DNA of 64,000 bases, taken from the IMG/VR virus record IMGVR_UViG_3300044464_000108, positions 28,034 through 92,033 of that record; one strand, written 5' to 3'. This stretch comes from a virus. Position 1 is the first letter of the stretch. Every line of letters starts with the position of its first letter. Of this stretch, positions 31,949 to 63,714 are shown piece by piece. The notes beneath the pieces are model-generated. The model was not told the origin of the DNA and did no database searches. It was given only the letters and a program-made list of their open reading frames with translations. The position numbers were made by a program, and so were the translations under genes.

Positions 31949-31976
31949 TTGCGTCTAACTCATCATGAGATATATC
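31949..31976 (+). promoter_or_regulatory. Promoter with operator-like palindrome in the spacer (copy 1)
   Basis: TTGCGT, 16 bases, TATATC. The spacer carries TAACTCATCATGAGATA (31956-31972), an imperfect version of the palindrome TAGCTCATCATGAGCTA seen at 61.9 and 63.7 kb. It lies 43 bases before ATG 32019, with a leader that contains GAAGAAAGAGAG. A spacer operator would allow repression by steric block. Confidence 0.55.
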
Positions 31977-32018
31977 TCTTTCACCGGTCGGGCAGACCGA
32001 GAAGAAAGAGAGACCTCG

Positions 32019-32621
32019 ATGAGCTACGAAAACGCACCCGGGACCGAGTTGATCGCGACAAGCTGCGCATGTTGTGCGCGCCCCTTGCTCGATGCCGTTT
32101 CGGTCGAGACGGGTGTCGGGCCCGATTGCCGGCGCAAGTTCGGCTTTAACGAGGCGCAACAACCGGCGGATATGCAAGGGGCCTTTGCTCTACTCGCGAG
32201 CCTTGCGACGACCGAAACGGCCGAAACGTTCCTTGCTCCGTTTCGATGCGGCGAGGCTTCACCCCGTGAGCTTTCCAACCTGCTGGTGCATCGCATTGCG
32301 GCAGCGCAGATCGGCGAGCACGTGAACGCCTACACGAACGCGATACGCGCTCTCGGCTTCGTGAAGCTTGCCGATCGGATTGCGGAGCGGATCGCGAAGG
32401 TCGTGATCGAAGCGGACGCGAACGAGCTCACGGTCAAGGTGCCTTACTCCGAGGAAGCGGTGCACGCGTTCCGCAAGGTGCCCGGTCGACGTTGGGACCG
32501 CGAAGCGAAGGTCTATCGCCTGCCGGCGACGTCGAAGCGTGCTCTCTTCAACGTGCTTCGTGACTTGTTCCCCGGCGTGACGGCACGCGGCCCGAAGGGC
32601 GTCTTCGTTCTCGCCATCTGA
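32019..32621 (+). CDS. Zinc-site and HARP-like domain protein
   Basis: A 200-residue protein starting at ATG 32019 after a GAAGAAAGAGAG ribosome site. Residues about 14-42 hold a four-residue metal site (CACCARPL...VGPDCRRKFG) as in small phage zinc proteins. The C-terminal 70 residues (VKVPYSEEAVHAFRKVPGRR, WDREAKVYRLP) resemble the HARP domain of SMARCAL1-type annealing helicases, here without a helicase. It could bind DNA forks, but that is inference from the domain look-alike. Confidence 0.55.
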   Translation: MSYENAPGTELIATSCACCARPLLDAVSVETGVGPDCRRKFGFNEAQQPADMQGAFALLASLATTETAETFLAPFRCGEASPRELSNLLVHRIAAAQIGEHVNAYTNAIRALGFVKLADRIAERIAKVVIEADANELTVKVPYSEEAVHAFRKVPGRRWDREAKVYRLPATSKRALFNVLRDLFPGVTARGPKGVFVLAI

Positions 32622-32635
32622 TCGCGCGTCGGTTC

Positions 32636-32661
32636 GAGCTCACGAGCCATTTCGTGAGCTC
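32636..32661 (+). terminator. Hairpin between HARP-like and sigma-like genes
   Basis: A perfect ten-base stem, GAGCTCACGA and TCGTGAGCTC, around GCCATT, in the 86-base gap 14 bases after the stop. There is no T-run, so it is either a weak terminator or an RNA structure. Confidence 0.4.
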
Positions 32662-32707
32662 CGGCAGGCGCGGGGGAAGAGAGACCCGCGAGAGAGACAG
32701 GGGCAAC

Positions 32708-33367
32708 ATGCGACGAATACCGATTGAGCTTTGTAGGCTCGCGAGTGGGGAGATTCGATTCACTGAGTTCGTGACGTTGACGCTCGACGAGTGGAAGCGT
32801 TACGCGGCGAGCCTCTTGAAACGTTGGCAGGTTCCCGCCGCCGTCGAAGTGTCCGACGTCGTGCAAGAGCTGCTCATGAGCGTGTCGCGGCATCTCGCGA
32901 TCTGGGATTCGACGCGCGCGGCGGCGGACAAGTTCCTCGTGTGGAGCGCGACGACGGAGACGAAGCGCTGGCTGCATCGTCAGCGCAGCGCGAAGCGATT
33001 GGATGATCGATCCCCGAGTCGACATCCGTTCTCGTTCTCGACCTTTCCTTGGACAGAGCGATCGACTTCGAAGAGCAGTGACGATCTCTTTACCGCTTCG
33101 GATATCAGCGCTTCGCTTGAGGTCGAAGCCGATCAAGATCAGAACATCGAACGATCGGAGTCGATCACTCGAGTGCTCAAGGCACTCAATGCGAGCGATC
33201 AATACTGTGTGATCGCGCTCGTCAGCAAAGGGTCTGTCGACGAAGCGGCTCGAGTCGTATACGACGATGCGGGCTTTCGTCTCGCGTGTCGATTCCGCGG
33301 TCCCGTGGATGCTCGACGCCGGGTGATGCAAGCGGCTTCGAGAGCTGCACACGTTGCGGCTTCGTGA
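32708..33367 (+). CDS. Sigma-70-family-like transcription factor
   Basis: A 219-residue protein with a sigma region-2-like block (residues about 20-85: EWKRYAASLLKRW, then DVVQELLMSVSRHLAIWD, FLVWSATTETKRWLHRQ) and a weaker region-4-like block at the C-terminus (ALNASDQYCVIALVSKGSVDEAARVVYDDA). The linker is Ser-rich and variable. A phage-borne sigma factor could direct host polymerase to the CGCGTCATSAT or TANSST elements, shifting transcription over time. ATG 32708 follows GACAGGGGCAAC. The family call is by pattern only; the C-terminal half is divergent. Confidence 0.6.
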   Translation: MRRIPIELCRLASGEIRFTEFVTLTLDEWKRYAASLLKRWQVPAAVEVSDVVQELLMSVSRHLAIWDSTRAAADKFLVWSATTETKRWLHRQRSAKRLDDRSPSRHPFSFSTFPWTERSTSKSSDDLFTASDISASLEVEADQDQNIERSESITRVLKALNASDQYCVIALVSKGSVDEAARVVYDDAGFRLACRFRGPVDARRRVMQAASRAAHVAAS

Positions 33368-33397
33368 ATGTTTTTCGCAAAGGAGAGATAGACCACC

Positions 33398-34672
33398 ATG
33401 ACAACCAACACGCCCGTGAACCATTCGTCGAAGAAGGACAAGACAGAAGCCGACGTCGCAGCGGCGGTCAAAGCTGTACCGCCGAAAGCCGACTACACGA
33501 GGATCGATGAAGCGGTGCTCAATGCGGCGCTTACGGTTCGACAGCTCGGACTCGAGGGAACTCCGCGCGAACGCGCTCAACGTCTGATTATGGATCTGGC
33601 CGAGAAGGTTCCCGATGGACGTCTCGTCGTGTGCTCCGAGTGCGGGTTCTTCTCGGACACACAAGATCCCGCGTGCACGTTCTGTGGTACCGGGGACGAA
33701 CCGAAAACCGCCACGACGAAGGAAGCTTCCGTCGCAGCCGATCCGAAGACAGGACAGAAGCTCGTGAAGCGACCGAAGACGACGAAGAAGATCAAGTCCG
33801 CTCCGAACAGTGCGCCTTCAATTGAAGGCGAGATCGTTGATGCGCCGGCCGGTTCGGGGGCGATCGTGCTACGTGATCCGACCATGATCACGACGACGCA
33901 CGTGAACGGGAAGTCGAACGGCAAGATCACGCACGCGAACGGCAGCGATCAACTTGATGCCGCCGTGGCTGAAGTGAAGCGTCTCAAGCTCGAGACGGTC
34001 AAGAGCGCTTGGCAACTAGGGATCCAGTTGAAGAAGATCTTCGACGAGAAGCTCTTCCTGCAACGCCGGGACTCGAAGGGTGTGCCGGTCTATAAGACGT
34101 GGCCCCAGTTCTGTGCGGCAGAGCTCGACCTCACATCGCAACACGCTTTCAAGCTCATGGACGTGGCGGCGATCTACTCCGAGAAGCAGATCATGCAGCA
34201 TGGGATCGCCCGGCTTGGGATCGCGATCCGAGTACCCGAAGCGGATCGACAGAAGTTCGTCGACGACGCGGCAAAGAAGGGGCTCAACTTGAAGCAATTC
34301 AAGGATGCGGCGAGCACGTTGACGGCGGGGCAATCCGCACGTGATACGGGGCGCGGCAAGGGCAATAGCAACCTTGCCAAGGCTAAGGCCGGGGCGAAGG
34401 CAAAGCAGCCGCACAAGGGCACGGCACCTGCCGCGAAAGCACAGCCGGACGCGCGCCCGAAGATCACGGTTGCGATGGTGCTCGGTCGCACGAAAGTGCC
34501 GCTTTTCGGTCGCCCGAAGAAGAAGGGTGCGGAACCCGTACGCGCGAAGAGCCTCAAGGAAGACCCGCGTGGATCGGAGATCTCGCCGAACGGAGTAGAG
34601 ACGACGTACGTGCTGCAAGCCGATGCAAAGGGACAGCTCTTTCTTGTCATCGATCGACATCGCTCGACTTAG
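33398..34672 (+). CDS. Large zinc-ribbon protein of the DUF3102-like type
   Basis: A 424-residue protein with a zinc ribbon at about residues 75-94 (CSECGFF...CTFCGTGD), low-complexity Lys/Thr linkers, and a helical domain at 185-300 (KSAWQLGIQLKKIFDEKLFL, then AAELDLTSQHAFKLMDVAAIY) that resembles DUF3102-type DNA-binding proteins found near phage and plasmid replication or partition genes. The C-terminal part is basic and Ala-rich. AAAGGAGAG precedes ATG 33398. A role in partition or transcription is possible but unproven. Confidence 0.55.
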   Translation: MTTNTPVNHSSKKDKTEADVAAAVKAVPPKADYTRIDEAVLNAALTVRQLGLEGTPRERAQRLIMDLAEKVPDGRLVVCSECGFFSDTQDPACTFCGTGDEPKTATTKEASVAADPKTGQKLVKRPKTTKKIKSAPNSAPSIEGEIVDAPAGSGAIVLRDPTMITTTHVNGKSNGKITHANGSDQLDAAVAEVKRLKLETVKSAWQLGIQLKKIFDEKLFLQRRDSKGVPVYKTWPQFCAAELDLTSQHAFKLMDVAAIYSEKQIMQHGIARLGIAIRVPEADRQKFVDDAAKKGLNLKQFKDAASTLTAGQSARDTGRGKGNSNLAKAKAGAKAKQPHKGTAPAAKAQPDARPKITVAMVLGRTKVPLFGRPKKKGAEPVRAKSLKEDPRGSEISPNGVETTYVLQADAKGQLFLVIDRHRST

Positions 34673-34679
34673 ATAGACT

Positions 34680-34691
34680 CGCGCCATGATG
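34680..34691 (+). promoter_or_regulatory. CGCGCCATGATG element before DNA polymerase
   Basis: CATGAT exactly 6 bases before ATG 34697; one base differs from the core CGCGTCATSAT. Confidence 0.55.
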
Positions 34692-34696
34692 AGCGC

Positions 34697-37429
34697 ATGA
34701 AGCGCTCGCAAGTCCGTATCGGTTCGAAGCCAGCCCATCCGCCGGCACCTCTGCCCGAGGTCTCTCTTCAACCGGCAGGTGGGTTGCCTTCGAACCGATA
34801 CGTGAACGCGTTTGCGAATGGGGGGCTACTCGTCACCCTGGCTCGAGCGCCGGACGGGAAGTTGGTTCGCAAGAGTCAGCACGCCGAATATTCGGCCTTC
34901 CTTCGCAAAGCCGATCTCACACCCACACTTCAAAGAGAGTTTCGAAACACGAGCTTCGTCACGGGGATGCGTGACGAAGGGAGCTACGTACGGCTTACTT
35001 TTCGTGATCGCCACATCCGCCGGTCCCTTGTCGAGACGAACGGGTGGTTTGCCTCGCAAGGGATCGATGTCTTTGAAGGGGACATCGATCCGGTCCGGCG
35101 GTGGATCACCGATCAGAAGATCGAGATCGCTCGACCGCGCCGCGTGTACTTTGACCTTGAGACCGATTCACGCGTGTCGGTGTCCCGTGCGATCACGGGA
35201 GAGGCGCGAGTCCTTTGCTGGTCTCTCGTCGATGATGCGGGCAATTCAATTGCGGCGAAGGTGCTCGAGTCGGACAGCGATCAAGCCGAGCGACAGCTTC
35301 TCGTCGAGTTCTTCCGTGCGATCGAACCTTACGATCAGGTGCTCGCGTGGAACTTAGACCGCTTCGACAAGCCCGTGCTCGAAGGCCGGAGTTACCGCCT
35401 TCGGTTGCCGATCGAGTTCCGCACGTGGCTATGGCTCGACCACATGCCCTTGTTCCTCAGGATGAACATGAGCTCGAGCGAGTCGGGGGACGAGAAGCAA
35501 TATGCCGGATTGAACGCGGTCGCTGAATCCTTGGGCGTGGGGCAGAAGCTCGAAGGGGTGGACGCTTCGAAGGCCTATGAGCTTTGGCAAGAGAACCCGA
35601 AGAAGCTGCTTGAGTACTGCATTCAAGACACGAAGTTGATGCATGGGATCGAAGCCGAGACAGGGTACATCGAGCTACTGCAAACGCTTTGCGAGAGCTG
35701 CAACGTGTTCCCCGACTCGCGCGGCATCCGCCCTCTAAGGCAGGTCGAAGGCTTCCTCTTGCGCCTCGGCTCTGAGCGCGACACACGCTTCGCGACGAAG
35801 TGTTACGACGCGGTTGAGACGACCTCGGACGATGACGAGGAAGAAGAGGAAGAAGGGCAGTTCAAAGGGGCTTACTGCATGGCGCCTAAGAAGGGTGTTC
35901 ATCAGAAGGTCCACGTCGCGGACTTCGCACGCCTGTACCCGTCAATCATCCTGAGTTGGAACATGAGCGCCGAGACGTGGCGGCCCGATGTGAGGATCAA
36001 AGAGAGTGAGTTCTCTCGACCTGTCTACCTGTCTCACATCCCACTGAAGACTTTTCCACTTCCGCCGGGCCATTGCATCGCGGCGATCACCGACACCGTG
36101 TTCGCGAATGAGCCGAGGGGCATTCTCGCGGATGCTCTTGAAGAGATGCTTCGGCTTCGCGTGCATTGGGACGACGTGAAGACGGCGAGCGTTCCCGGCT
36201 CGCATGCCTGGAAGGAAGCGGATCGCCGGAGTGCTGCTTACAAGATCGCGGCGAACAGTTTTTTCGGTGTCGTGGGGTCTCCCTTTGCGCGGTTCTTCGT
36301 GCGCGAGATCGCCGAAGCGATCACACAGTGCGGCGTCTTTCTGCTCGAAGAGACCATCAAGGCGGCCGAAGTGCGGGGGATGAACGTGGTCTATGGGGAC
36401 ACGGATTCTTTCTTCGCGACGGGGTGCACGCGCGAAGAGTTCCAAGTCTTCGTGAAGTGGTGCAACACGGAGCTTTACCCGAGGCTTCTCAAGGAAAAGG
36501 GAGTCACGAGGAATCGGATCAAGCTCGCTTACGAGAAGGCGTTTCACGTCATCGTCTTCACCAAGAAGAAGCGCTACATCGGGCGCTACTGGCATTACAA
36601 GAACACCGATGCGACGGACGATTCGAAGCCTGAGATCAAGGGTCTCGAATACAAGCGCGGCGATACTGCGCGTCTCGCAAGGCAGCTCATGAAAGAAGTG
36701 ATCGATCTGCTCGTCGCATACGAGCGGCCGGTCGCAGAGTGCGCGACGGATCCGAATCGCTTCGTCGAGCTGCTCAACGCGTGGAAGAGCCGTGTGCTCG
36801 ACAGTGAGCTCGAGCGAGCGGACTTCGTGATGAGCAAGCGGCTCAACCGTGGGATCAACGGGTACGCCATGAAGGTGAAGAAGGCGCTCAAGCTTGCGGA
36901 CCGGGCGAGCGTGAAGCTCATCGGTGAGATCGTCGAAGTCTTACGGACTGATGGGAAGATGATGCACGGATTGCTCGAGCACATCGGCGGGACTTATATC
37001 GGGCTGCTCGACCGGAAGGGGCTCGAAAGCAAGCTTGTCGAGCAGAAGCTCGTCGACACGGTGGCCGGCTACCGTGCTCAACCCATCCACGTGACGGTCG
37101 CGCGCATGATGCAAGAGAGGGGTGAGGACGTCGGGCAGGGGGTGCGGATCGAGTACGTGATCGTCGATGGGGCTTCGACGCCGCAGAAGGCCATCCCGGC
37201 GGCGGACTTCGGGCCGGGGGTTGCGATCGATCGGTTCTACCTTTGGGAGGATCTCGTCTTCGCGCCGACGTGCCGGCTCTTGCAAGCCGCCTTCCCGGCG
37301 TTCGATTGGACGCCTTGGGCGAAAGTTCGTCCTGTGAAGCCAAAGCCCGTCCAGGGGGCAAAGCGAGCCGGGAACAGTTCTTCCACCGCACGACGGGCCA
37401 AGCCGACGAATCAACGTAGCCTTTTCTGA
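34697..37429 (+). CDS. Family B DNA polymerase
   Basis: A 910-residue replicative polymerase. The 3'-5' exonuclease domain begins with VYFDLETDS (about residue 150), polymerase motif A is DFARLYPSIILSWNMS (about 409), motif B is YKIAANSFFGVVG (about 515), and motif C is YGDTDSFF (about 566). An acidic loop with TSDDDEEEEEEG sits between the exonuclease and palm (about 376-390). It synthesises the phage genome with the helicase, primase and putative SSB encoded nearby. ATG 34697 is directly after the CATGAT element with a leaderless spacing. Confidence 0.92.
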   Translation: MKRSQVRIGSKPAHPPAPLPEVSLQPAGGLPSNRYVNAFANGGLLVTLARAPDGKLVRKSQHAEYSAFLRKADLTPTLQREFRNTSFVTGMRDEGSYVRLTFRDRHIRRSLVETNGWFASQGIDVFEGDIDPVRRWITDQKIEIARPRRVYFDLETDSRVSVSRAITGEARVLCWSLVDDAGNSIAAKVLESDSDQAERQLLVEFFRAIEPYDQVLAWNLDRFDKPVLEGRSYRLRLPIEFRTWLWLDHMPLFLRMNMSSSESGDEKQYAGLNAVAESLGVGQKLEGVDASKAYELWQENPKKLLEYCIQDTKLMHGIEAETGYIELLQTLCESCNVFPDSRGIRPLRQVEGFLLRLGSERDTRFATKCYDAVETTSDDDEEEEEEGQFKGAYCMAPKKGVHQKVHVADFARLYPSIILSWNMSAETWRPDVRIKESEFSRPVYLSHIPLKTFPLPPGHCIAAITDTVFANEPRGILADALEEMLRLRVHWDDVKTASVPGSHAWKEADRRSAAYKIAANSFFGVVGSPFARFFVREIAEAITQCGVFLLEETIKAAEVRGMNVVYGDTDSFFATGCTREEFQVFVKWCNTELYPRLLKEKGVTRNRIKLAYEKAFHVIVFTKKKRYIGRYWHYKNTDATDDSKPEIKGLEYKRGDTARLARQLMKEVIDLLVAYERPVAECATDPNRFVELLNAWKSRVLDSELERADFVMSKRLNRGINGYAMKVKKALKLADRASVKLIGEIVEVLRTDGKMMHGLLEHIGGTYIGLLDRKGLESKLVEQKLVDTVAGYRAQPIHVTVARMMQERGEDVGQGVRIEYVIVDGASTPQKAIPAADFGPGVAIDRFYLWEDLVFAPTCRLLQAAFPAFDWTPWAKVRPVKPKPVQGAKRAGNSSSTARRAKPTNQRSLF

Positions 37430-37451
37430 CTTGGGCGAACCCTGACGGGCT

Positions 37452-37463
37452 CGCGTCATGATG
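37452..37463 (+). promoter_or_regulatory. CGCGTCATGATG element with leader
   Basis: Followed by TCAAAGGGAGG and ATG 37487; a leadered member of the class. Confidence 0.5.
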
Positions 37464-37486
37464 GGGTCAAAGGGAGGCTACGAGCG

Positions 37487-38101
37487 ATGCGACGGAGCGA
37501 AGCGGGTGGACGTAAAAAGCCGGACTTCTTAGGGAATCTCCGAATCCCTTCGGAAGATCGATCTTCCGAGGATTCGACCGACCGGCCGGCTAGTTCGATT
37601 GAGGGGGCGGTGTTACGCGGCAAGCTCCGGGGGCTCGATCAGGTCGTCGAGCGAATCTTTGAGATCGGGGTCGACGAAAGCAAGTTTCTCGAGCTCAAGC
37701 GATGTTTGAAGTTTGGCAAGCCGGCATCACAGATGTCTTACGGCGAGCTCGTCGACGAGCTCGACTTAGGCGAGGATCGGGCGCGAGAAGCGCACGAACT
37801 GTTCATCAACGCGGAGTATGCGCTTCGGGCGTACGAAGCGGACTCAATGCCCGGGGACTCCGACATGCGAGAGCAGGCTCTCGCGGCGCTGACGAGCGAG
37901 AAGGAGTCCGGCGCACGGAAAAAGCAGATAGCGGAAGCGGACGTCGAAGCGAAGGTTTCGAGTCTCTTCCCCGACGAGTTCCGTTCCCGCGTGCACGAGC
38001 GCGCGAAGTTGAAGGGTGCCGTCAAACACTTGGAGCATCTTGCGGACCTTTGGAAACAACGGTGTCGCGAGCTCCAAACAATGGTCTCCGGTGCTCGTTA
38101 A
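37487..38101 (+). CDS. Unknown coiled-coil protein with in-frame palindrome insert
   Basis: A 204-residue, largely helical protein. Residues 22-28 (SEDRSSE) come from the dispersed palindrome near the N-terminus. The helical body (residues 40-204, VERIFEIGVDESKFLELK, then AHELFINAEYALRAYEAD) looks like a four-helix or coiled-coil scaffold. It lies between polymerase and the putative SSB and may be a replication accessory or a recombination mediator, but no motif shows that. AAAGGGAGG precedes ATG 37487. Confidence 0.55.
   Translation: MRRSEAGGRKKPDFLGNLRIPSEDRSSEDSTDRPASSIEGAVLRGKLRGLDQVVERIFEIGVDESKFLELKRCLKFGKPASQMSYGELVDELDLGEDRAREAHELFINAEYALRAYEADSMPGDSDMREQALAALTSEKESGARKKQIAEADVEAKVSSLFPDEFRSRVHERAKLKGAVKHLEHLADLWKQRCRELQTMVSGAR
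37550..37569. repeat. Dispersed 20-bp palindrome, copy 7 (in coding sequence)
   Basis: Perfect 20-mer within the N-terminal codons of the 37487 gene, read as SEDRSSE; CCCT flanks the left arm. Confidence 0.9.
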
Positions 38102-38146
38102 GACACGCGGCGACGATGAAACAATAGGGAACCAAAAAGGGATCAC

Positions 38147-39571
38147 ATGACAAAGAACAGGCATGCGCTCGGGATGACCGAGTTTCTCAACCACAAGGGC
38201 AGCGGTAAGGGCGGCGGACAGTATCTCGACAACTGGAAGGACAACAAACGGATCCTTGTCTACCTCCACACGCAAAGCAGCTTCATCCCGTACTGGTTTC
38301 ACGGATGGTCAAAGGTCATTCCTTTTGAGGATCGTGAGACGGGCTCGAAGGGTCTCAAGGTCATCCCGCACAAGTTCGGTTGCCTTGAGAAGGAGTCGAT
38401 CCTCAAGAAGCAAAGCTATCGCGACGATGACGATGCGCGCGAGCTACCGCCGGAAGTCTGCCCGATGTGCATCTACATCGAGCACGTGCGCAAGCTTGTG
38501 CGGTCGAAGGCGATCAGTTGGGTTGACGAGGTTCTCAAGTTCGAAGGGGACGACCCCGAGAAGATGGTGGTCTGTCATGCCGGCGGCATTTACAAGCACT
38601 TCAGCAAAGACGACCTCGACAAGGCTGAGATTGCGGAGCTCCGACAGCATCACATCAACCGGAAGGATTCCTTCAAAGAGAACCTGTACGCGCGCATGAA
38701 CTACGTTTTCGCAGTTGTGAACGCGGAAGCACCCGAAGGCGTACAGGTCGCGCAAGAAGCGCCGGCACTCGGGGACAAGTTGAAGTTTGCGATTCGAGAC
38801 GAGATCGCAAAGCTCCGCTCGAAGCAAGATCCCGACGGCAGGGCAGGCAACCCGATGTTGAATCCCTACCCGTTCGAGTGGCTTTACGACGACTCGCAAA
38901 ACTTCGACAAGAAGTACCACGTGCGCCGAGGTCCCATCCTTGAGCTCACGGATGACATCCGCGATCTGATCACGGATGCCGAGCAGCTTCCCGACCTCGA
39001 AGCGGTAACAACGCAGGGCAACTGTGTGACGCTCCGCTCGGAGCTCGAGACCCATTCGACTCTTGATTTGCCTTGGGACGAGATCTTCGCGCCGGCAAAG
39101 AAAGCCGGGCTCATGAAGATGGCAGAGTCAGCCGAGAAGCACGACCGCGTGCCCGAGGTCGGGAAGTACTCCGAAGCGGATGCCGCGACCGAAGCTGCTG
39201 AAGCTGAAGCCAAAGCCGAAGAGGACGATGGGATCACGTGTGATCATTGTGATGCCCCAATGGCGGATGATGATGTCGTGTGCGCGTCGTGCGGCGCGAC
39301 GTACGAAGAGGTCAATGGTGTGCTCGCTCTCGGCACGCGGCCTTGTCTCAACCCCGAGTGTGACAAGCAAGTCGACGTTGCCGGAGCGGAAACGAAGGAC
39401 GGCGCAGCGGTGTCGATCTGTGGGAAGTGCGCGACGATTCACGAAGTGCGCGACGGCGTGTGGGGCATCGTGAAGCCTGCAGCGAAACCGGCGGCAAAGC
39501 GTGCAGCGAAGGCAACCCCAAAGGTCGAGCCTGAGAAGAAGCCTGCCGCGAAGCGCACCCCAAAAGCCTAA
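38147..39571 (+). CDS. Putative single-strand DNA-binding protein (gp32-like role)
   Basis: A 474-residue protein upstream of the RecA-like gene. The N-terminal 300 residues contain GQYLDNWKDNKRILVYLHT, a CPMCIYIEHVRKL zinc half-site, and a strand-rich core (NYVFAVVNAEAPE, PILELTDDIRDLITDAEQ) that resembles phage SSB proteins, in which a zinc-stabilised OB-type core binds single strands. A C-terminal pair of zinc ribbons (CDHCDAPM...CASCGATY; CLNPECDKQ...CGKC) and a basic Lys/Ala/Pro tail are unusual for this role. The assignment is inferred from neighbourhood and general layout. Confidence 0.6.
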   Translation: MTKNRHALGMTEFLNHKGSGKGGGQYLDNWKDNKRILVYLHTQSSFIPYWFHGWSKVIPFEDRETGSKGLKVIPHKFGCLEKESILKKQSYRDDDDARELPPEVCPMCIYIEHVRKLVRSKAISWVDEVLKFEGDDPEKMVVCHAGGIYKHFSKDDLDKAEIAELRQHHINRKDSFKENLYARMNYVFAVVNAEAPEGVQVAQEAPALGDKLKFAIRDEIAKLRSKQDPDGRAGNPMLNPYPFEWLYDDSQNFDKKYHVRRGPILELTDDIRDLITDAEQLPDLEAVTTQGNCVTLRSELETHSTLDLPWDEIFAPAKKAGLMKMAESAEKHDRVPEVGKYSEADAATEAAEAEAKAEEDDGITCDHCDAPMADDDVVCASCGATYEEVNGVLALGTRPCLNPECDKQVDVAGAETKDGAAVSICGKCATIHEVRDGVWGIVKPAAKPAAKRAAKATPKVEPEKKPAAKRTPKA

Positions 39572-40850: not shown

Positions 40851-40852
40851 CC

Positions 40853-41074: not shown

Positions 41075-41086
41075 AAGGGACGATCA

Positions 41087-48750: not shown

Positions 48751-49005
48751 GTGCAAGCGATAGCGTGGGAGGAATGGTCACCCGATTGGGCGACCCACAT
48801 CAAAGCGCGGTATACGGCACGTGAATACGACCATCACACGAAGATGTTTGAAGCGCAGCAGGTCGAAGGTGTCTGCTCGGTCTGCAACACGCAATGGAAG
48901 ACAACTTGCTCGAGCGGGCATCCGCGCGAGCGCATCGCGACCTTTGCGCGTGTCCACCTTCATCGCGATCCTCTGACTCCGACCCGAATCGAAAAAGCTC
49001 GATGA
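48751..49005 (+). CDS. Small Cys/His protein
   Basis: An 84-residue protein from GTG 48751, with a CSVCNTQWKTTCSSGH metal-like site (residues about 41-56) and a basic surface. It may bind zinc and nucleic acid. It starts two bases after the previous stop, with CGAAGGAGATCG upstream. Function unknown. Confidence 0.5.
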   Translation: MQAIAWEEWSPDWATHIKARYTAREYDHHTKMFEAQQVEGVCSVCNTQWKTTCSSGHPRERIATFARVHLHRDPLTPTRIEKAR

Positions 49006-49020
49006 GCTAGATCGATCCTC

Positions 49021-56626: not shown

Positions 56627-56853
56627 AGAAGACCATCTCGATTGTGCTGTTAGTCCTTGTTGGATGTGGTGGACCTGTCCCTGTTCTTGAACAGGGTGCT
56701 AAGAAAGTACTGTCGTCCGACATACCCCCCGATGAACAGCTCACGCTCGATATACCTCCCGACGAGCAGCTCAAAGACATCCCGCCTGACGAGCAGCTCA
56801 CGGGTGACGCTGGAACGCGGAAACCTCCCGTGTGCGTCAACTGCTTCCAGTGA
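56623..56853 (+). CDS. Small lipoprotein with three IPPDEQL repeats
   Basis: A 76-residue lipoprotein: a signal with lipobox LVGC (Cys 15) and a mature region with three tandem copies of DIPPDEQL, separated by one or two residues (residues about 33-58), then a short Cys-containing tail (CVNCFQ). It starts at ATG 56623, overlapping the secreted protein's stop by 4 bases, so the two are co-expressed. Surface lipoproteins in phages often act in superinfection exclusion; here that is only a possibility. Confidence 0.7.
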   Translation: MKKTISIVLLVLVGCGGPVPVLEQGAKKVLSSDIPPDEQLTLDIPPDEQLKDIPPDEQLTGDAGTRKPPVCVNCFQ

Positions 56854-56876
56854 ACTGACTCTCGCCGCCTAGGCTT

Positions 56877-56888
56877 CGCGTCATGATC
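56877..56888 (+). promoter_or_regulatory. CGCGTCATGATC element before 56894 gene
   Basis: CATGAT exactly 6 bases before ATG 56894. Confidence 0.6.
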
Positions 56889-56893
56889 CCAGC

Positions 56894-57097
56894 ATGGCGA
56901 TCCACGACGCTCCGACATCCCAAAACATCGAACAACTAACCATCCTCCGCGTTTCGAGCGTGCTCGGACAAGTGAGTGAGAACACCCTCAAACGGTTGGT
57001 TCAATCGCACATCACGCCGAAAGGCTTGCTCTTGCTTGGTCGTGCCGCGTCGCACGAGCTCGACCGCCGCTTTGACCTCGAGAAAGGAACACGATGA
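56894..57097 (+). CDS. Small unknown helical protein
   Basis: A 67-residue protein with two helices (QNIEQLTILRVSSVLGQVSE; KGLLLLGRAASHELDRRF). It starts 6 bases after CATGAT. The next gene overlaps by 4 bases. No function is assigned. Confidence 0.6.
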   Translation: MAIHDAPTSQNIEQLTILRVSSVLGQVSENTLKRLVQSHITPKGLLLLGRAASHELDRRFDLEKGTR

Positions 57098-57444
57098 TCC
57101 ATCCGAATGCTCGCCCGATGAATGGGCTCTTCACGCGCCTTGCGTCCGCACTCGCGGTCCCTTGGCAAACGAGCTACACGGCTCCCGCCGCCCGCACCCT
57201 CGACGCTCTCGTTCACGTCGCGAAAGGCTACGACGTCTTTTGGACGCCCGTCGGCTTCGACGAGAAGGACGACTCACGAGAGCCGGCATCCGTTTGCTAC
57301 CGCATCTTCAAGGTCATCAAAGGCGAGCGCATCACGAGCCACGCCGTCGAAGTCGATCACACCTTGCCAACTTGGATCTACCGAGCCGAGCACAAGCTTC
57401 GCGAGAACCTTCGAGCTCTTCTCTTCTTCGGGTTCGTCCGATGA
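57094..57444 (+). CDS. Unknown protein
   Basis: A 116-residue protein; AGAAAGGAACACG lies before ATG 57094, which overlaps the previous stop. The alpha/beta sequence includes VWTPVGFDE and ITSHAVEVDHTLP. No family recognised. It is upstream of the terminase, co-translated with the next small gene (ATGA overlap). Confidence 0.55.
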   Translation: MIHPNARPMNGLFTRLASALAVPWQTSYTAPAARTLDALVHVAKGYDVFWTPVGFDEKDDSREPASVCYRIFKVIKGERITSHAVEVDHTLPTWIYRAEHKLRENLRALLFFGFVR

Positions 57445-57734
57445 TCACGCCGAAGGAATGCGTTTCCCCGACGCCGCAAGATCTCGAGATGGCGAGCATG
57501 CTCGAACATGAGATCGACGACTGTTTGCGAAAAGCCGCCGGTGCAGATGCGGTTTACAACGTGACATCCGCCATTACTGATCGAGCCATTCGAATCGTGA
57601 TCGATCGATACCGAGCCGCTGGTTGGTGTGTCGAGCTCATCACGATCCGCCCCCCATCCGAAGATCGATACGAGCGACACCCGAAGCGAACCCTCCGCTT
57701 TGAAGTCCCCTCGACGACCGCGTTCGATCGATAA
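57441..57734 (+). CDS. Unknown small protein before terminase
   Basis: A 97-residue protein from ATG 57441. A helical body (MASMLEHEIDDCLRKAAGAD) is followed by an alpha/beta segment (RAIRIVIDRYRAAGWCVELI) that resembles a small regulatory or structural phage protein. The terminase start follows after about 135 bases, a gap with no other gene. Confidence 0.55.
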   Translation: MITPKECVSPTPQDLEMASMLEHEIDDCLRKAAGADAVYNVTSAITDRAIRIVIDRYRAAGWCVELITIRPPSEDRYERHPKRTLRFEVPSTTAFDR

Positions 57735-57868
57735 GCCCCCAACGTTTGACCCGACCCCCATCCCTCCGTCATCCTCTCTCGTAGGAAGGCCGTACCAGCG
57801 CAGCAACCCCAGGCTTGGGAGAGCCATCAAGGGGCCGCTTCGCTCAAGGGTCCGAGACGAGATCCCCC

Positions 57869-59689
57869 ATGACAACCCAGTCCCCTCTTTCACCCCAACG
57901 CACCCTCACGCCTGCCCAACTCCAAGAGCGCTCCCTACTCCTCCAACGCTCTCTACTCCGACGTGCTTACGCGGCTCGACTCGACCCCGCTGACTTTCTC
58001 GAGTTCGTCGTCCGCGAAGAGACCACACGACAACGGCTCAAGTGTGCCCCGCACCAACGCGTTGTCCTCGACTTTGTAATGTCACACGCGCGGTCCGTTG
58101 TGAGGCTTCCAGTAGGCTTTTCGAAGACGTATCTCATGGCCACGCTCAGCATGTTCAACCTCGGACTCGATTGCACGGAGCGTGGTGCAATCATCTCGAG
58201 CACGGCCGAGCAAGCCTCGAAACCCCTCGGCATGGTGCGCGACTACATCGCGAACAAGGACAACCAACACCCCGAGCTCCGTCTCGTGTTCCCCGAGCTG
58301 CAGCAGTCCCCACACGAGGACGATCCGTGGACGCAAACAAAGATCGTCGTCAAGCGCCCGTCAGGCATTCGCGATCCTTCCCTCAAGGCCGTCGGAGTCG
58401 GGGGAGCTCTCCCCGGCTCGCGTCTGCGCTGGATCAACGTGGACGACATCCTCGACGAGGAGAACACCCGAAACCACGACGGGCGCTCGCGCGTAAACGG
58501 ATGGTTCATGAGCACCGTGCTCTCGCGCGCCGATGCGAAGGACTCCCGCCTATGCGTGACGAACACGCCTTGGCATCGTGAAGACCTCACGTACAAACTC
58601 GAAGAGGCCGGGTTTCCCACGCTCGAGATGAACATCGAAGGGCAGGTCTCGATCACCAACACCGATTGGGACACCGACGAGGTTCGCCCGAGCTACGCGA
58701 TACGGGGCTCCGTGTGCCGTCTCGCTTCGCACGACTCCGAGAGCTACGGCGCACCCGAGGCGATTCGACTACGCGCTGACGACCCCCTGGAAGAGAAGGG
58801 CGAGCACATCCTGTTCGAGGGCAACGCTTCGCTAGGCCGACCCGTTGAGCCGTTCGATGTTGCGGAGTCGATCCCGCTTTGGCCCGAGCGCTACGACCGC
58901 GAAGTCATCGACAAGAAGAAGGTCGATTACAAGAACAGCATGCACGAATACAACCGCCTCTTCATGCTCCGCACACGGAGCGAAGAAGGCGCGCGCGTGC
59001 AGAAGGAATGGATCGAGCGCGCGAAGCTGCTCGGTCGCACGCTCGGCATGTATCACTTCGTTTCCGAGTACCTCGGACCGAACCTCACCGTGACGGGTGT
59101 CGACCTCGCGGTATCGCGCAAGAAGGGATCGGACTTCACGTGCTTCGTCACCGTCGAGCTCGTGCCGAACATCACGTTCGACTTGCGCGAGGATGGCGTC
59201 GTTCGAAGCATCACGCTTCGAAACGCTCGCCGGATTCTCGAGGTTGATATCGGGCGGTGGAAGGGGCGCACGATCGTCGACAAGTTGATCGACAAGTGCA
59301 AACGCTACAACTCAATCGCGCGGGTCGAGACGAACGCGGCGCAAGACTTCCTCAGGCAATGGACGATCGATGAGGACACGAGCGTGCCGGTCAAGGCGCA
59401 CAACACGGGGAGGAACAAGATCGATCCTCGATATGGTGTCGAGAGCGTGTTCGTCGAGCTCGAGAACGGCGCTTGGATCTTTCCCTCGGACATCGGCGGT
59501 GCTGCACCCGAAGCGCTGCAAGTCGTGATCGACGATTGCCTTTACTACAACCCGACGGCGCATACGGGCGATGGGCTAATGGCAACGTGGCTCGCTCGAG
59601 AACAGATACGAGCAATCACGGGCGACTCGAGGGACTACGACGGGGCGGCCCAACCTTCGAGCCTCGGCGCGTCTCTTACGGCTCGCTAG
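57869..59689 (+). CDS. Terminase large subunit
   Basis: A 606-residue protein (from ATG 57869; an in-frame ATG at 57815 would add 18). The ATPase part has a divergent Walker A, LPVGFSKTYLMA (residues about 80-91), and Walker B with INVDDILDEEN (about 190-200). The nuclease domain has the RNaseH-like acidic residues GVDLAVSRKKGSD (about 410-422), RVETNAAQDFLRQW, and HTGDGLMATW near the end. It cuts and pumps DNA into the prohead. It is the only packaging gene certain in the window; portal and capsid genes are not found downstream to the window end. Confidence 0.85.
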   Translation: MTTQSPLSPQRTLTPAQLQERSLLLQRSLLRRAYAARLDPADFLEFVVREETTRQRLKCAPHQRVVLDFVMSHARSVVRLPVGFSKTYLMATLSMFNLGLDCTERGAIISSTAEQASKPLGMVRDYIANKDNQHPELRLVFPELQQSPHEDDPWTQTKIVVKRPSGIRDPSLKAVGVGGALPGSRLRWINVDDILDEENTRNHDGRSRVNGWFMSTVLSRADAKDSRLCVTNTPWHREDLTYKLEEAGFPTLEMNIEGQVSITNTDWDTDEVRPSYAIRGSVCRLASHDSESYGAPEAIRLRADDPLEEKGEHILFEGNASLGRPVEPFDVAESIPLWPERYDREVIDKKKVDYKNSMHEYNRLFMLRTRSEEGARVQKEWIERAKLLGRTLGMYHFVSEYLGPNLTVTGVDLAVSRKKGSDFTCFVTVELVPNITFDLREDGVVRSITLRNARRILEVDIGRWKGRTIVDKLIDKCKRYNSIARVETNAAQDFLRQWTIDEDTSVPVKAHNTGRNKIDPRYGVESVFVELENGAWIFPSDIGGAAPEALQVVIDDCLYYNPTAHTGDGLMATWLAREQIRAITGDSRDYDGAAQPSSLGASLTAR

Positions 59690-59693
59690 GCTT

Positions 59694-59705
59694 CGCGTCA
59701 TCATC
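59694..59705 (+). promoter_or_regulatory. CGCGTCATCATC element before a micro-gene
   Basis: CATCAT exactly 6 bases before ATG 59711. Confidence 0.6.
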
Positions 59706-59710
59706 CGGAC

Positions 59711-59782
59711 ATGAGCGAGCAAGAGTCCGAGGAAGAACGAAGTGCGGCGATGGATCTCACGTCCCTTGTCGACGTGTCGTGA
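59711..59782 (+). CDS. Possible 23-residue micro-gene
   Basis: ATG 59711 to TGA 59782 encodes MSEQESEEERSAAMDLTSLV and DVS. Support is the precise promoter spacing and the overlap of its stop with the next GTG start (4-base overlap), a pattern used by real gene pairs here. It may be a translated leader that couples the following gene, rather than a functional peptide. Confidence 0.45.
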   Translation: MSEQESEEERSAAMDLTSLVDVS

Positions 59783-60252
59783 AGACCACGATCGATCTTA
59801 CTGACGACGCATCCCCGTGCGAGCCGATGGCGATCGGTGATCCGAGCAGCCTTTGCGTTGATGGCGATGACGTCGTGATCCAGCTTCGCGAAGTCGAGCT
59901 TCGGATGACAACCCCTCAATTCGTCACCTTCGCGGAAGCCGTGAGCGAGTTTCTCTTCCGCGACTTCAGAGGGGAACTCGACATCAACGATCCGAATCGC
60001 TGTCCCGAGCGTGAGCATCACGAGCTTCGCGAGCTCTATCGAAAGATCTTGAGCGGTGTAGTGGGTGGCGAATTCGTACCGGATGCACTCCGATGGTCAA
60101 TCATGTCCGAACTCGTGAGGCGGCGGATTGACCCCGAGCTTTGGATCGATCTCAAAGAACAACTTCGTCGAGCGCACGAAGAGATCGAATCAAAGGGATC
60201 CAAGGGATCCAAACCACGTCGAACACGAACGAAGAGCGGAGGAAACCCATGA
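59779..60252 (+). CDS. Unknown protein downstream of terminase
   Basis: A 157-residue protein from GTG 59779, overlapping the micro-gene's stop. It contains strand-rich DDVVIQLREVELRMTT and a helical middle (CPEREHHELRELYRKIL) with a basic, Lys-rich C-terminus (ESKGSKGSKPRRTRTKSGG). It overlaps the lipoprotein start by 4 bases. No function assigned. Confidence 0.55.
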   Translation: MKTTIDLTDDASPCEPMAIGDPSSLCVDGDDVVIQLREVELRMTTPQFVTFAEAVSEFLFRDFRGELDINDPNRCPEREHHELRELYRKILSGVVGGEFVPDALRWSIMSELVRRRIDPELWIDLKEQLRRAHEEIESKGSKGSKPRRTRTKSGGNP

Positions 60253-60893
60253 AGATCTTTCTCGCATTGATGGGCATGTGCATCGGTTGCAGCGCGGAAA
60301 GCTTAGGAACGTCGGCCGCCGAATCGAGCAACGGACTTCGCTTCGTCGATGTCTCCGAGCTCGACGTAAACGAGGGATGGATCAACGTGTGTCCGCCGTC
60401 CGTCTCTGTCCCGAAGATGCGCGCGACCTTCCCGGCATCCACCGCGCAACTCGCCGACCTTCGGTTCATCTATCGAGGCCCGACGGCGGACAGTATCCCG
60501 CTCGCGTCGGGCGAGTTTCGAACTCAGCTCGGGCTGAAGCTCAGAGCGCAAAACGAATGCAACATCGTTTATGTGATGTGGCGTTTCGCTCCGACTCCGG
60601 GGATCGTCGTGCAGGTGAAAAGCAATCCCGGCATGAGCACGAGTGCGGCTTGTGGGAACGGGGGCTACACGACGATCAAGTCATCGAGCTCGATGCCGGT
60701 CCCTTCCGTCGCAGTCGATTCGTCTCACGCCATTCGCGCGACCCTCGACGCTCGAGCTCTCACCGTCGAAGTGGATGGGGCGACGGTTTGGCAAGGTGAC
60801 GTTGGACCCGCGGCGATGCTCTTTGACGGCCCCATCGGCATCCGCTCCGACGATGCTGCCTTCGAGTTCGGGCTGCTCGCCGTGGCACCCTGA
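60249..60893 (+). CDS. Lipoprotein with lectin-like fold
   Basis: A 214-residue protein with a lipobox (CIGC, Cys 14; MKIFLALMGMCIGCSAES). The mature part is beta-rich and ends with a run of strands (AIRATLDARALTVEVDGATV, then FDGPIGIRSDD) similar to concanavalin-like jelly-roll carbohydrate-binding proteins. It would sit in the host envelope, the third such exported protein in the window. ATG 60249 overlaps the preceding stop by 4 bases. Likely host-derived or involved in surface modification (inference). Confidence 0.65.
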   Translation: MKIFLALMGMCIGCSAESLGTSAAESSNGLRFVDVSELDVNEGWINVCPPSVSVPKMRATFPASTAQLADLRFIYRGPTADSIPLASGEFRTQLGLKLRAQNECNIVYVMWRFAPTPGIVVQVKSNPGMSTSAACGNGGYTTIKSSSSMPVPSVAVDSSHAIRATLDARALTVEVDGATVWQGDVGPAAMLFDGPIGIRSDDAAFEFGLLAVAP

Positions 60894-60939
60894 ATCTTTT
60901 TCGACAATGAGCTAGATCCTTTTCTCGATCTGAGGCGCT

Positions 60940-60951
60940 CGCGTCATCATG
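60940..60951 (+). promoter_or_regulatory. CGCGTCATCATG element before 60957 gene
   Basis: CATCAT exactly 6 bases before ATG 60957. Confidence 0.6.
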
Positions 60952-60956
60952 GGGTC

Positions 60957-61391
60957 ATGACGAAGCTCGCCGACAATCTCGCCGATCACATTCGCACCTA
61001 CGAAGAGGACCGAGCCAAGCGCTACGAGGGACGGCAGTACACCCCCGACGTCGGGCTCTCGTTCACCGTGCATCTCGAGCAGGGTAAGGTGCTCCGCATC
61101 GTTCGCACCGATGGCATTCAAGCCGAGGCGACGACCGACAAGCTCGAAGAGCAGCTTGCAAACGGAACGCTCATCCTGACCGAGCACCTTGTCGGGATCA
61201 TGGCTCGCACGCTTGCAGGCATGCCGGGGCTCGATCGGGTCTCGCTTGAAGAACGATCGGTCATGGTCCGGCGGGAGCTCGCAAGGCAAGAGGCAAAGCA
61301 AATGACAATGCTCGCGATGATTGGACCCGTCGGATGCGAGCCGACGTTGATAACGGGGGTTCCGCCCGTCACTCGATGGGAAGACACGTGA
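60957..61391 (+). CDS. Unknown protein
   Basis: A 144-residue protein; the N-terminal part (residues 1-55) is helical and charged, and the middle forms strands (LSFTVHLEQGKVLRIVRTDG). A helical segment near the end (ERSVMVRRELARQEAKQMTMLAM) may dimerise. It starts directly after the CATCAT element. No function assigned. Confidence 0.55.
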   Translation: MTKLADNLADHIRTYEEDRAKRYEGRQYTPDVGLSFTVHLEQGKVLRIVRTDGIQAEATTDKLEEQLANGTLILTEHLVGIMARTLAGMPGLDRVSLEERSVMVRRELARQEAKQMTMLAMIGPVGCEPTLITGVPPVTRWEDT

Positions 61392-61422
61392 CGTGATGAT
61401 CGCTTGAAAGGGGGGTTGGGCG

Positions 61423-61659
61423 ATGTGGACGTTCGAAACGCTGGTCCGGGCTATTGAGTTCGCTGCGGTCTTCGCGAGCTACACGCTTGCGCTTCGCGGC
61501 TTGGCGAACTGGCTTGATGCGGTTGACGATCTGGAACGCGAGATCGGGTGGCGGTTCTATCGGCTTGAGCAACGGCGCGCGGGTCAAGCGCAGCTCGCCG
61601 GGGGGCTACTCGGGTTCGTGTCATCCGTCACGACCGTGATTCTCAGTTGGAAGTTTTAA
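61423..61659 (+). CDS. Small two-span membrane protein
   Basis: A 78-residue protein with hydrophobic spans at about residues 10-28 (AIEFAAVFASYTLALRGLA) and 58-76 (AGGLLGFVSSVTTVILSW). A charged linker lies between. The small size and two spans resemble class II holins, though the lysis genes lie elsewhere. AAGGGGGGTTGG precedes ATG 61423. Confidence 0.6.
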   Translation: MWTFETLVRAIEFAAVFASYTLALRGLANWLDAVDDLEREIGWRFYRLEQRRAGQAQLAGGLLGFVSSVTTVILSWKF

Positions 61660-61683
61660 CCGCAAACCGAAGGAGACAATCGA

Positions 61684-61863
61684 ATGCTGAATGACGATGA
61701 GAAGTTCTGTTCCCGCTGCGGAGTCTCGAAGGAGGAAGAGGGGCCCGACGAGGACGATGAAGACGAAGAGACGAGTCCGTTGGTCGTGCTCTCGAACCTC
61801 GGGCTTGTGTTTGGTGCCATGGTCGGCATCGGCTTGACCCTGGTTCTTGGCTTGAAGTTGTAG
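61684..61863 (+). CDS. Small zinc-ribbon membrane protein
   Basis: A 59-residue protein: FCSRCGVSKEEEGPDEDDED (residues about 8-27) gives an N-terminal Cys pair and acidic stretch, followed by a transmembrane helix (about 36-57, LSNLGLVFGAMVGIGLTLVL). It has a fair ribosome site (CGAAGGAGACAATCG) and lies just before a strong terminator, so it ends the unit begun at 60957. No function assigned. Confidence 0.6.
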   Translation: MLNDDEKFCSRCGVSKEEEGPDEDDEDEETSPLVVLSNLGLVFGAMVGIGLTLVLGLKL

Positions 61864-61868
61864 CCCTT

Positions 61869-61905
61869 CGACGGGGCTCGATCGCTTTCTGATCGAGCCC
61901 CGTCG
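61869..61905 (+). terminator. Rho-independent terminator
   Basis: A 15-bp stem with a 7-base loop: CGACGGGGCTCGATC, GCTTTCT, GATCGAGCCCCGTCG, followed by ATTCTTCCTT. It lies 5 bases after the small zinc-ribbon gene and before a spacer-operator promoter. Confidence 0.75.
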
Positions 61906-61913
61906 ATTCTTCC

Positions 61914-61941
61914 TTGTATCTAGCTCATCATGAGCTAGATT
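61914..61941 (+). promoter_or_regulatory. Promoter with palindromic spacer operator (copy 2)
   Basis: TTGTAT, 16 bases, TAGATT, then 7 bases to ATG 61949. The perfect palindrome TAGCTCATCATGAGCTA (61921-61937) lies in the spacer and overlaps the -10, extending outward to 61919-61939. A protein dimer bound there would block polymerase. Confidence 0.65.
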
Positions 61942-61948
61942 GTTTCCC

Positions 61949-62284
61949 ATGACGAACGAGACGACGGCGAGCAAGTGGTGGTCAACCGAGATGGTGATGC
62001 ACTACGCGTCCGTGACGGGTGGGCTATCCGGCGAGTCGCGCATGTTCAACTATCCGGCGAGCTATTACGCGACGCACATCGTCGAGAACGACGGTTGGCG
62101 CTTGATGAACCCGACCATGGCAAAGCGGGTTGCAGCTCTTCTCAAGAAGGGCTGGATCGAACGGCGCGAGACGACGCGCGATTACCCGGAAGAGCCGAAC
62201 ATGTTCGGGCCCGGCATGCATCCGGCGCACACCACGACGCGAGCAACTTACTTCGCGACCGAAGCCGGACGACAAGCCAAGTAG
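61949..62284 (+). CDS. Unknown protein under operator control
   Basis: A 111-residue protein from ATG 61949, 7 bases after a TAGATT -10-like element with an operator palindrome. It contains MAKRVAALLKKGWIERRETTRDY (residues about 51-73), reminiscent of a winged-helix recognition part, then GMHPAHTTTRATYFATEAG. It could be a DNA-binding protein, maybe even the operator's binder, but that is inference from the position. Confidence 0.55.
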   Translation: MTNETTASKWWSTEMVMHYASVTGGLSGESRMFNYPASYYATHIVENDGWRLMNPTMAKRVAALLKKGWIERRETTRDYPEEPNMFGPGMHPAHTTTRATYFATEAGRQAK

Positions 62285-62352
62285 CTTGAACCGAACCTGC
62301 TCGAAAAGCTCGAACAGGTGGCCGGGTGCTTAGCGGCCCCCATGCGGGTAGC

Positions 62353-62850
62353 ATGCGTGGTACGATTCCTCGAACCCGTCGCATCCCTGGAGCAGTCTCG
62401 GTGATCCCTCTCCTTCTCATCAATGACGAGATCGACCAGCTCTACAGCCGCGTAACGGCAGCAATCTTGCTCGCCGAGAAAGCGGAGACGACTGGAAGCA
62501 AGATACAAGCAGCGACGGCCTACCTTGAGGTCTCGTTCTTGGAGGAGGAGATCGCCAAGTTGCTTCCTGCGACCGATCCTGAAGGCGAGATTGCTCGCCG
62601 CGGCGTGATCACAGCGGCGACAAGCGCCGGCCAGTTCGTGCGAGCCGTAGAGATGGCGAACACGTACGCCTCGGATCCATATGCCGGCGTGGCGCTGAAG
62701 AACCAGCTCGCTGCTCTCCGCGACTACGCGGAGCGCGAGGCGCGGTCGGTGCTCCGTGGCCCCGTCCTCGTGCACCCTCGAGCGAAGTTCCGGTTGCTGA
62801 CCCTAGTTCTTCGCCGGTACATAAGATTGATCAGAATGGACCAGTCCTAA
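62353..62850 (+). CDS. Helical protein of likely foreign origin
   Basis: A protein of 149-174 residues depending on the start: GTG 62326, ATG 62353 (used here) or GTG 62401; none has a clear ribosome site or one of the phage hexamers. The body is helical (AATAYLEVSFLEEEIAKLL), repetitive and TPR-like. Codon use looks different from its neighbours (more GCC/GGC/CTG, fewer TCG-centred codons), and no overlap joins it to either side. It may be a recent acquisition; function unknown. Confidence 0.5.
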   Translation: MRGTIPRTRRIPGAVSVIPLLLINDEIDQLYSRVTAAILLAEKAETTGSKIQAATAYLEVSFLEEEIAKLLPATDPEGEIARRGVITAATSAGQFVRAVEMANTYASDPYAGVALKNQLAALRDYAEREARSVLRGPVLVHPRAKFRLLTLVLRRYIRLIRMDQS

Positions 62851-63178
62851 GTGGCCGCCGAAGTCCACCACCGCGAGCAGGCGCCGCAGCGCCTCCGTGT
62901 CGAACTCCGAGCCGAGGCGTAACGCGTTCACGCGCGAGGTGGTCGAAGCGGCGACGTCGCGCGAGGTTTTGGGTTCGTGGCAAAGCGCGGTGCTCTGCAT
63001 CGGCGCGATGCGGGGTCGTTCGGCGACGGTTGCAGCGGTCTGAGTACGCCGACTGGTTACTAGTTGACGCGGCCGGTGGTCGCGTCGCACTCGAAGTCAG
63101 CGGGACTGACGACGGTGACGCAAGGGGACGGATGCGCGAAAAGCTCGCACTCGAAAGGGTGACGGGCATTCGGCGGTC
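62851..63178. other. 328-base stretch without a convincing gene
   Basis: No rightward gene is evident. A leftward frame (62803-63090) carries a plausible-looking segment, TSRVNALRLGSEFDTEALRR, at its C-terminal half that could be a remnant of a foreign protein, but it lacks a promoter-like element, and I do not annotate it as a gene. Composition differs from the phage genes around it, in line with the preceding gene. Confidence 0.4.
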
Positions 63179-63655
63179 ATGAACACTTCCACCGCTCGCA
63201 AGTCGAACCCGCACCTCCGCATCGTTCGAGCTTCCGCGTCGAAGCCTTCAACCCCGCCGGCACCCCTTGGCGTCGTCGAGCAGGTGCGCCAAGCCTTCCG
63301 CCCGGCGAACCGCCTTGCAACGTTCGTAGGGTTCCTTCTAGGCGGCTTCGTGCCCTTGGCAACGTACGTGGTCGCCCACTACGAGCACGACCTTTCTAGG
63401 CCCCTCTACGCGCAACTAACGACCCTTCTCGTTTTCGGGGGCCTCTTCTACTCCGCGCGCACCGTCTTCGCGTGGGGCAACCTGGCATTCAGGGCACCCA
63501 TCAAGGCGATCGGGTTCGTCGTCCTGATCGAGGGGGTCATGGTCTCGAGCGCGACCCCGTGGCTTCGCGTCGCGGCGCTCGCCTATCTCGTCATGATCAA
63601 CGGCATCGCAACCGGCGTGACGCTCTCGCTCGACCGGACGAAACGAAGTCGGTGA
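63179..63655 (+). CDS. Multi-span membrane protein
   Basis: A 158-residue protein with a charged N-terminus (residues 1-45) and four hydrophobic spans (about 46-66, 79-95, 105-125 and 130-148; FVGFLLGGFVPLATYVVAHY, then LLVFGGLFYSARTVFAWG, AIGFVVLIEGVMVSSATPW and ALAYLVMINGIATGVTLSL). No family is recognised. It may be a transporter-like or exclusion protein. The start lacks a phage hexamer. Confidence 0.6.
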   Translation: MNTSTARKSNPHLRIVRASASKPSTPPAPLGVVEQVRQAFRPANRLATFVGFLLGGFVPLATYVVAHYEHDLSRPLYAQLTTLLVFGGLFYSARTVFAWGNLAFRAPIKAIGFVVLIEGVMVSSATPWLRVAALAYLVMINGIATGVTLSLDRTKRSR

Positions 63656-63686
63656 GGACAATCGACTGGCCGGTGTCGTTCGTCCC

Positions 63687-63714
63687 TTGTATCTAGCTCA
63701 TCATGAGCTATACC
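63687..63714 (+). promoter_or_regulatory. Promoter with palindromic spacer operator (copy 3)
   Basis: TTGTAT, 16 bases, TATACC, with the palindrome TAGCTCATCATGAGCTA (63694-63710) in the spacer, as at 61.9 kb. A leader with GAAAAGGAAGAGAGACC precedes ATG 63759. Confidence 0.6.

Follow-up and report, generated by a model that had tools for sequence, protein, structure and literature searches.

In lambda-type repressor systems the operator is a dyad inside a core early promoter of the phage, and a dimeric helix-turn-helix (HTH) repressor is expected to bind it. Cluster A mycobacteriophages carry more than 20 asymmetric 13-mers, the stoperators, which are bound by a monomer; they repeat one repressor site over the phage genome, in the orientation of transcription and in some cases at promoters (PMC9283540). 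On RK2, the 12-bp KorA operator OA adjoins or overlaps core promoters, and OB, the site of a ParB-family protein, may be distant (PMC11790492). Here we describe a palindromic element that recurs in one register within four promoter-like sites of a 92,033-bp uncultivated phage record, IMGVR_UViG_3300044464_000108. The stretch analysed, hereafter the window, comprises 64,000 nucleotides, bases 28,034–92,033 of that record; coordinates are those of the window (window = record − 28033) unless the record is named.

As in lambda-type operators, the dyads lie inside the core of putative early promoters. Unlike them, there is one operator per promoter at four scattered promoters, no integrase was found in the record and no cI-like gene was recognised. 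One candidate repressor site is repeated along the genome in the direction of transcription, as with stoperators, but it comprises four symmetric 17–23-mers placed at promoters only, and the set does not qualify as stoperators. The outline also resembles RK2 KorA/KorB, with promoter-bound dyads, a scattered second palindrome and a ParB; on the other hand, no KorA homologue was recognised here, and any link between the two palindrome families is hypothetical. An operator placed over a phage early promoter is a known principle, proposed here for a new virus without a close relative in the collections searched.

The four sites are all intergenic, all on the plus strand, and all follow the layout TTGNNT, 16 bp, TANNNN. 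The sites and the partial copies are:

31949–31976, plus strand: site 1, TTGCGT-16-TATATC, with the dyad TAACTCATCATGAGATA at 31956–31972
61914–61941, plus strand: site 2, TTGTAT-16-TAGATT, with the 23-bp perfect dyad ATCTAGCTCATCATGAGCTAGAT at 61918–61940 and an ATG 7 nt behind the −10 element
63687–63714, plus strand: site 3, TTGTAT-16-TATACC, with the exact 17-mer at 63694–63710 and a leader in common with site 1
record 151–178, outside the window, plus strand: site 4, TTGTAT-16-TAGATT, with an exact copy of the 17-mer at record 158–174
49002–49013, plus strand: right half-site ATGAGCTAGATC, exact, 12 nt, 20 nt upstream of a GCGTCATGAT element
60907–60918, plus strand: right half-site ATGAGCTAGATC, exact, 12 nt, 34 nt upstream of a GCGTCATCAT element
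20275–20285, plus strand: left half-site TCTAGCTCATC

An earlier note, made from the letters of the window, had placed three such promoters in it, and the sequence bears out their positions and layout. Its count of three holds for the window and falls short for the record, where the search for further copies that it proposed recovered the fourth site. The note had called the dyad of the first site imperfect, and indeed that site, at 31956, has two mismatches to the 17-mer, of which 61921 and 63694 are exact copies; the partial versions it had seen near 49002 and 60907 are exact right halves (0.005 occurrences of this 12-mer expected).

The dyad TA-N-CTCAT-C-ATGAG-N-TA is invariant across the four sites, whose common pattern in one orientation is TTGNNTCTA[GA]CTCATCATGAG[CA]TA. 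With up to three mismatches allowed, six strand-matches (three sites) were found against 0.10 expected per window, a number reached by none of 100 shuffles, and a reversed-pattern control gave no match in the 92,033-bp parent record. The 24-nt sequence TTGTATCTAGCTCATCATGAGCTA occurs three times against 1e-11 expected, and in two copies the dyad lengthens to ATCTAGCTCAT-C-ATGAGCTAGAT, whose 11-bp arms flank a central C and match perfectly. Site 1 departs from the 17-mer at two bases, and these occupy dyad-equivalent positions (±6); mate-position changes of this kind would arise by chance in about 1 case in 15, and we take them as modest evidence for symmetric recognition. The full site with its TTG has no match in IMG/VR. 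Seven exact 16-mer matches in IMG/VR, none in a promoter context, were discarded as chance, and the single match in GTDB genomes is a terminator hairpin.

The best reading of the four sites is that they are host-sigma70-type promoters of small, probably early genes, two of them leaderless. Scored with a generic sigma70 matrix blind to the dyad, they come 1st, 2nd, 15th and 73rd of 20,418 intergenic positions and 4th, 5th, 77th and 348th of all 183,986 positions. The spacer is 16 bp in four of four, within the 16–18 bp of sigma70-type promoters. TAGATT-N7-ATG is found at sites 2 and 4, and with the start codon only 7 nt behind TAGATT the mRNAs would therefore be leaderless. Sites 1 and 3 share a leader (GTCGGGCAG..CC.GAG..AAG.AAGAGAGACC) ahead of the ATG, with an alignment score of 15.5 against 9.0 for the best of 2,000 shuffles. 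In Myxococcus phage Mx1, a single case, TTGACA-17-TAGAGT without a dyad stands about 35 nt ahead of the ATG of the gene homologous to the one behind site 1; this one distant relative thus has a promoter at the matching position but not the operator. The matrix ranks, the 7-nt spacing, the shared leader and the Mx1 promoter at the orthologous place uphold the promoter identity that had been proposed.

At each site the dyad lies over the core promoter, as in repressor operators. This overlap with the −35 and −10 elements, together with the symmetric divergence at site 1, is consistent with an operator bound by a single dimeric protein. We consider it somewhat probable that the four sites form a small early regulon in which the dyad is an operator over the −35/−10 region, shut by a dimeric phage repressor. 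The 17–23 bp operator would stretch from the tail of the −35 element as far as the −10 hexamer, and a phage-coded homodimer, with one subunit on each CTCAT half, would exclude RNA polymerase, so that the four promoters close together once the homodimer is abundant enough. A Fis-type binder would come from the replication operon, whose end lies about 0.5 kb upstream of site 1 and which would itself be read from a second promoter class. Early transcription would then be shut off as the replication genes, from that second class, take over; starts are predicted 6–8 nt behind TANNNN for the early promoters and at the CA of GCGTCATSATNNSNNCA sites for the later ones. What the sequence shows is the sites themselves, with their number, symmetry and register, their geometry relative to gene starts and their sigma70-like score; that a protein binds and represses, when it does so and which protein it is, we infer. 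Of the one-repressor regulon suggested earlier, the geometry of a dimeric operator stands, and the repressor itself is conjectural.

That a Fis-type HTH_8 protein and a ParB are coded in the same record speaks for the operator reading. Several observations weigh against it. The half-sites at 49002 and 60907 lack a suitably placed TTG, the −35 boxes agree with the consensus at only three of six positions, and no relative carrying the sites turned up in IMG/VR or in searches with five proteins. The sigma70 matrix consists of approximate E. coli frequencies. Moreover, the central C is identical in four of four copies, a constancy that serves no purpose for a symmetric binder and that would also follow from a promoter module duplicated recently.

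Two proteins coded in the window are candidate binders of the dyad:

31120–31449, plus strand: Fis-family HTH_8 protein P0007, 109 amino acids (aa), with GGAGG 7 nt before its ATG
23631–25340, plus strand: ParB with ParB_N and HTH_ParB domains, the second candidate palindrome binder

The 31120 protein passes its Pfam cut-off (PF02954, 33.3 bits against 22); its other Fis matches are weak. The gene overlaps the primase gene by 50 nt, and the non-overlapping part scores positive as coding. Dimers of Fis and of NtrC-type HTH_8 domains have dyad targets of 15–17 bp. Given that a phage protein binds the dyad, this protein is the most probable one, as a tentative choice among several. The earlier note had named it along with the proteins at 61949 and 31555, and only the first proves a genuine HTH_8 protein. 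Assignment of the 61949 protein to the MarR family is not supported (a sub-threshold match with E 0.0032 and 17.8 bits against a cut-off of 24.6, and no support from the fold), and the 31543/31555 protein gives a weak HTH_29 match (E 0.005), weaker still than that at 61949. The genuine ParB was absent from that list of candidates; it more probably has another target.

The record contains a second palindrome, the 20-bp TCGGAAGATCGATCTTCCGA, in 14 exact copies along its length, most of them intergenic and two inside genes, none with a T-run:

Window 7934, 10666, 14621, 20286, 22871, 30029, 37550, 48261, 54430 and 63953: copies of TCGGAAGATCGATCTTCCGA
Record 6521, 16419, 21925 and 27115, outside the window: copies of TCGGAAGATCGATCTTCCGA

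It has no match in IMG/VR. When the palindrome family was counted more loosely, with two pair mismatches, signal and chance could not be told apart; exact-match expectations do tell them apart. The nearest relatives of the ParB are those of Acidovorax phage Aval and Variovorax phage VarioGold, which carry scattered even 16-bp palindromes, GTGCA-N6-TGCAC, in 5 and 6 copies (4 and 5 in the best of 60 Markov simulations). The VarioGold paper mentions neither palindromes nor inverted repeats nor parS. Even and spread over the genome, these palindromes resemble TCGGAAGATCGATCTTCCGA, so the ParB of our phage more likely targets TCGGAAGATCGATCTTCCGA, which may be its site rather than the 17-mer dyad.

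Other explanations of the dyads have to be set against the phage repressor. A dyad of this kind would suit any dimeric HTH protein, and phages do borrow host repressors; the binder might thus be an activator or a host regulator, for instance a LexA-type repressor. Activators normally bind upstream of the −35 element or in a lengthened spacer of 19–20 bp, whereas the spacer here is 16 bp and both hexamers are partly covered, which makes this option unlikely. ParB proteins have palindromic sites dispersed along a replicon, and a true ParB_N plus HTH_ParB protein is coded here, so the dyads could instead be its sites, as a scattered centromere or a KorB-like silencer set with repression as a by-product. 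We regard this as rather improbable: the dyads are confined to promoters in a single orientation and register, and the palindromes of Aval and VarioGold look like the TCGGAAGATCGATCTTCCGA family instead. Of a parABS centromere system, the ParB with its HTH domain is present and the ParA partner is not (a PF13614 search of the record, which may be incomplete, gave no match).

The copies could also stem from recent duplication of a promoter module, with a symmetry that serves no function; this would account for the leaders shared by pairs of sites and, if the record is circular, for the position of sites 2, 3 and 4 within 2.3 kb. Duplication does not account for the perfect 11-bp arms in two copies, nor for the way the diverged site 1 keeps its dyad and changes at symmetric positions, and we think it improbable, slightly more so than ParB sites. 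RNA hairpins or terminators ending the upstream genes are very improbable. The palindrome could fold into an RNA stem of about 10 bp, but the stem is A+T-rich and is followed by TTGTTT, TCTCTG or ACCTAT rather than a T-run; the G+C-rich stem plus T-run of an intrinsic terminator is found at none of the four sites, and the fixed TTG at −35 and the fixed ATG distance would be left unexplained.

Beside the dyad promoters, the family YCGCGTCATSATNNSNNCA resembles a phage-specific promoter class that lacks a −35 box. Its core GCGTCATSAT occurs in 16 exact copies against 0.8 expected, all intergenic and oriented with genes, on both strands:

Record 1526, 3012, 21614 (minus strand), 37992 (minus), 38687 (minus), 50029, 53379, 59571, 65486, 69429, 76263, 77055, 82557, 84911, 87728 and 88974: GCGTCATSAT cores

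A start codon lies exactly 16 nt from the first G of the core in half of the copies (ATG in 7 of 16, GTG in one more), and the consensus ends in CA, the would-be start. No position beyond the core's own upstream edge exceeds 0.45 bits, so a −35 box is missing. Replication genes are among those that the copies precede, with variants before the DnaB (56319) and DNA polymerase (62714) genes, whereas the structural-gene half has hardly any. Mx1, Aval and VarioGold lack the motif, and Kromp has a single occurrence. We hypothesise that it is read by a sigma-like protein coded at 32708. T4 gp55 resembles sigma70 only in domain 2 and serves late promoters without a −35 element (PMC2988020). Our phage may be similar, with a candidate region-2-like protein that has no region 4 match and with −35-less promoter-like elements; it differs in its motif, GCGTCATSAT, whose recognition by the 32708 protein is putative. 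A broader scheme, which we think quite unlikely, would stack three layers: sigma70 promoters closed at the dyad, a sigma-like factor, coded downstream of site 1, on the mostly leaderless GCGTCATSAT promoters of the replication genes, and a ParA-less ParB, loaded at the 14 scattered 20-bp palindromes, that would aid the promoter-bound silencer as KorB helps KorA on RK2.

The genes behind the sites in the window are:

32019–32621, plus strand: HARP-like gene behind site 1, 200 aa, with a DUF6011 zinc-ribbon (PF19474, E 4e-11) and a HARP-like domain (PF07443, E 3e-4, below cut-off)
32708–33367, plus strand: sigma70 region-2-like protein, 219 aa, the next gene downstream of site 1
61949–62284, plus strand: leaderless gene behind site 2, 111 aa, a possible winged helix with the sub-threshold MarR match
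63759–63929, plus strand: gene behind site 3, 56 aa, with CxxC and CxC, zinc-binding-like from sequence

Site 1 had been said to drive the HARP-like gene; the gene does lie downstream, with its start at 32019 behind the ribosome-binding-like AAGAGAGACC and not inside the site. The best match of its product is in Mx1 (36.5% identical), where the homologue (8010–8528) is annotated as a 'capsid decoration protein', a label that conflicts with its DUF6011/HARP-like composition. Between the HARP-like and sigma-like genes, at 32636–32661, stands a perfect 10-bp inverted repeat, GAGCTCACGA..TCGTGAGCTC, without a T-run. The 32708 protein matches PF04542 (E 8.8e-5, 22.7 bits, under the cut-off of 24) and a PHROG sigma factor (E 0.035), and no region 4 match was found in it. 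The 56-aa protein at 63759 has no family match. The predicted fold of the 61949 protein is of low confidence, with no winged helix among the top structure matches; this model and the low-confidence model of the sigma-like protein were excluded from the evidence.

The record encodes a major head protein, an endolysin, a DnaB-like helicase, a primase and a family B-like DNA polymerase, as well as a RecA-type recombinase, an SbcC-like nuclease, ThyX, thymidylate kinase and the ParB. Close kin are absent from IMG/VR and the phage collection, as judged by the five proteins tried: the DNA polymerase search reached only 22–26% identity, and the HARP protein, the sigma-like protein, the ParB and the 61949 protein found no close relative. 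Although the record is classed as linear, its ends (1–71 and 91963–92033) form an imperfect repeat, about 72 nt long and with 6 mismatches, which hints at a circular map, without proving it, or at a contig end left unpolished. CTAG is strongly depleted in the whole record (57 found, about 329 expected from composition); the long dyad holds it twice despite this depletion.

Our analysis provides a testable control map of this virus: four promoters that would be regulated together, a candidate for their repressor, and a second, putative promoter class whose candidate sigma factor is coded behind one of the sites. If confirmed, both the operators and the promoters that lack a −35 box would make small, orthogonal parts. 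If the repressor reading is true, one virus-made DNA-binding protein could turn off four sets of small genes jointly.

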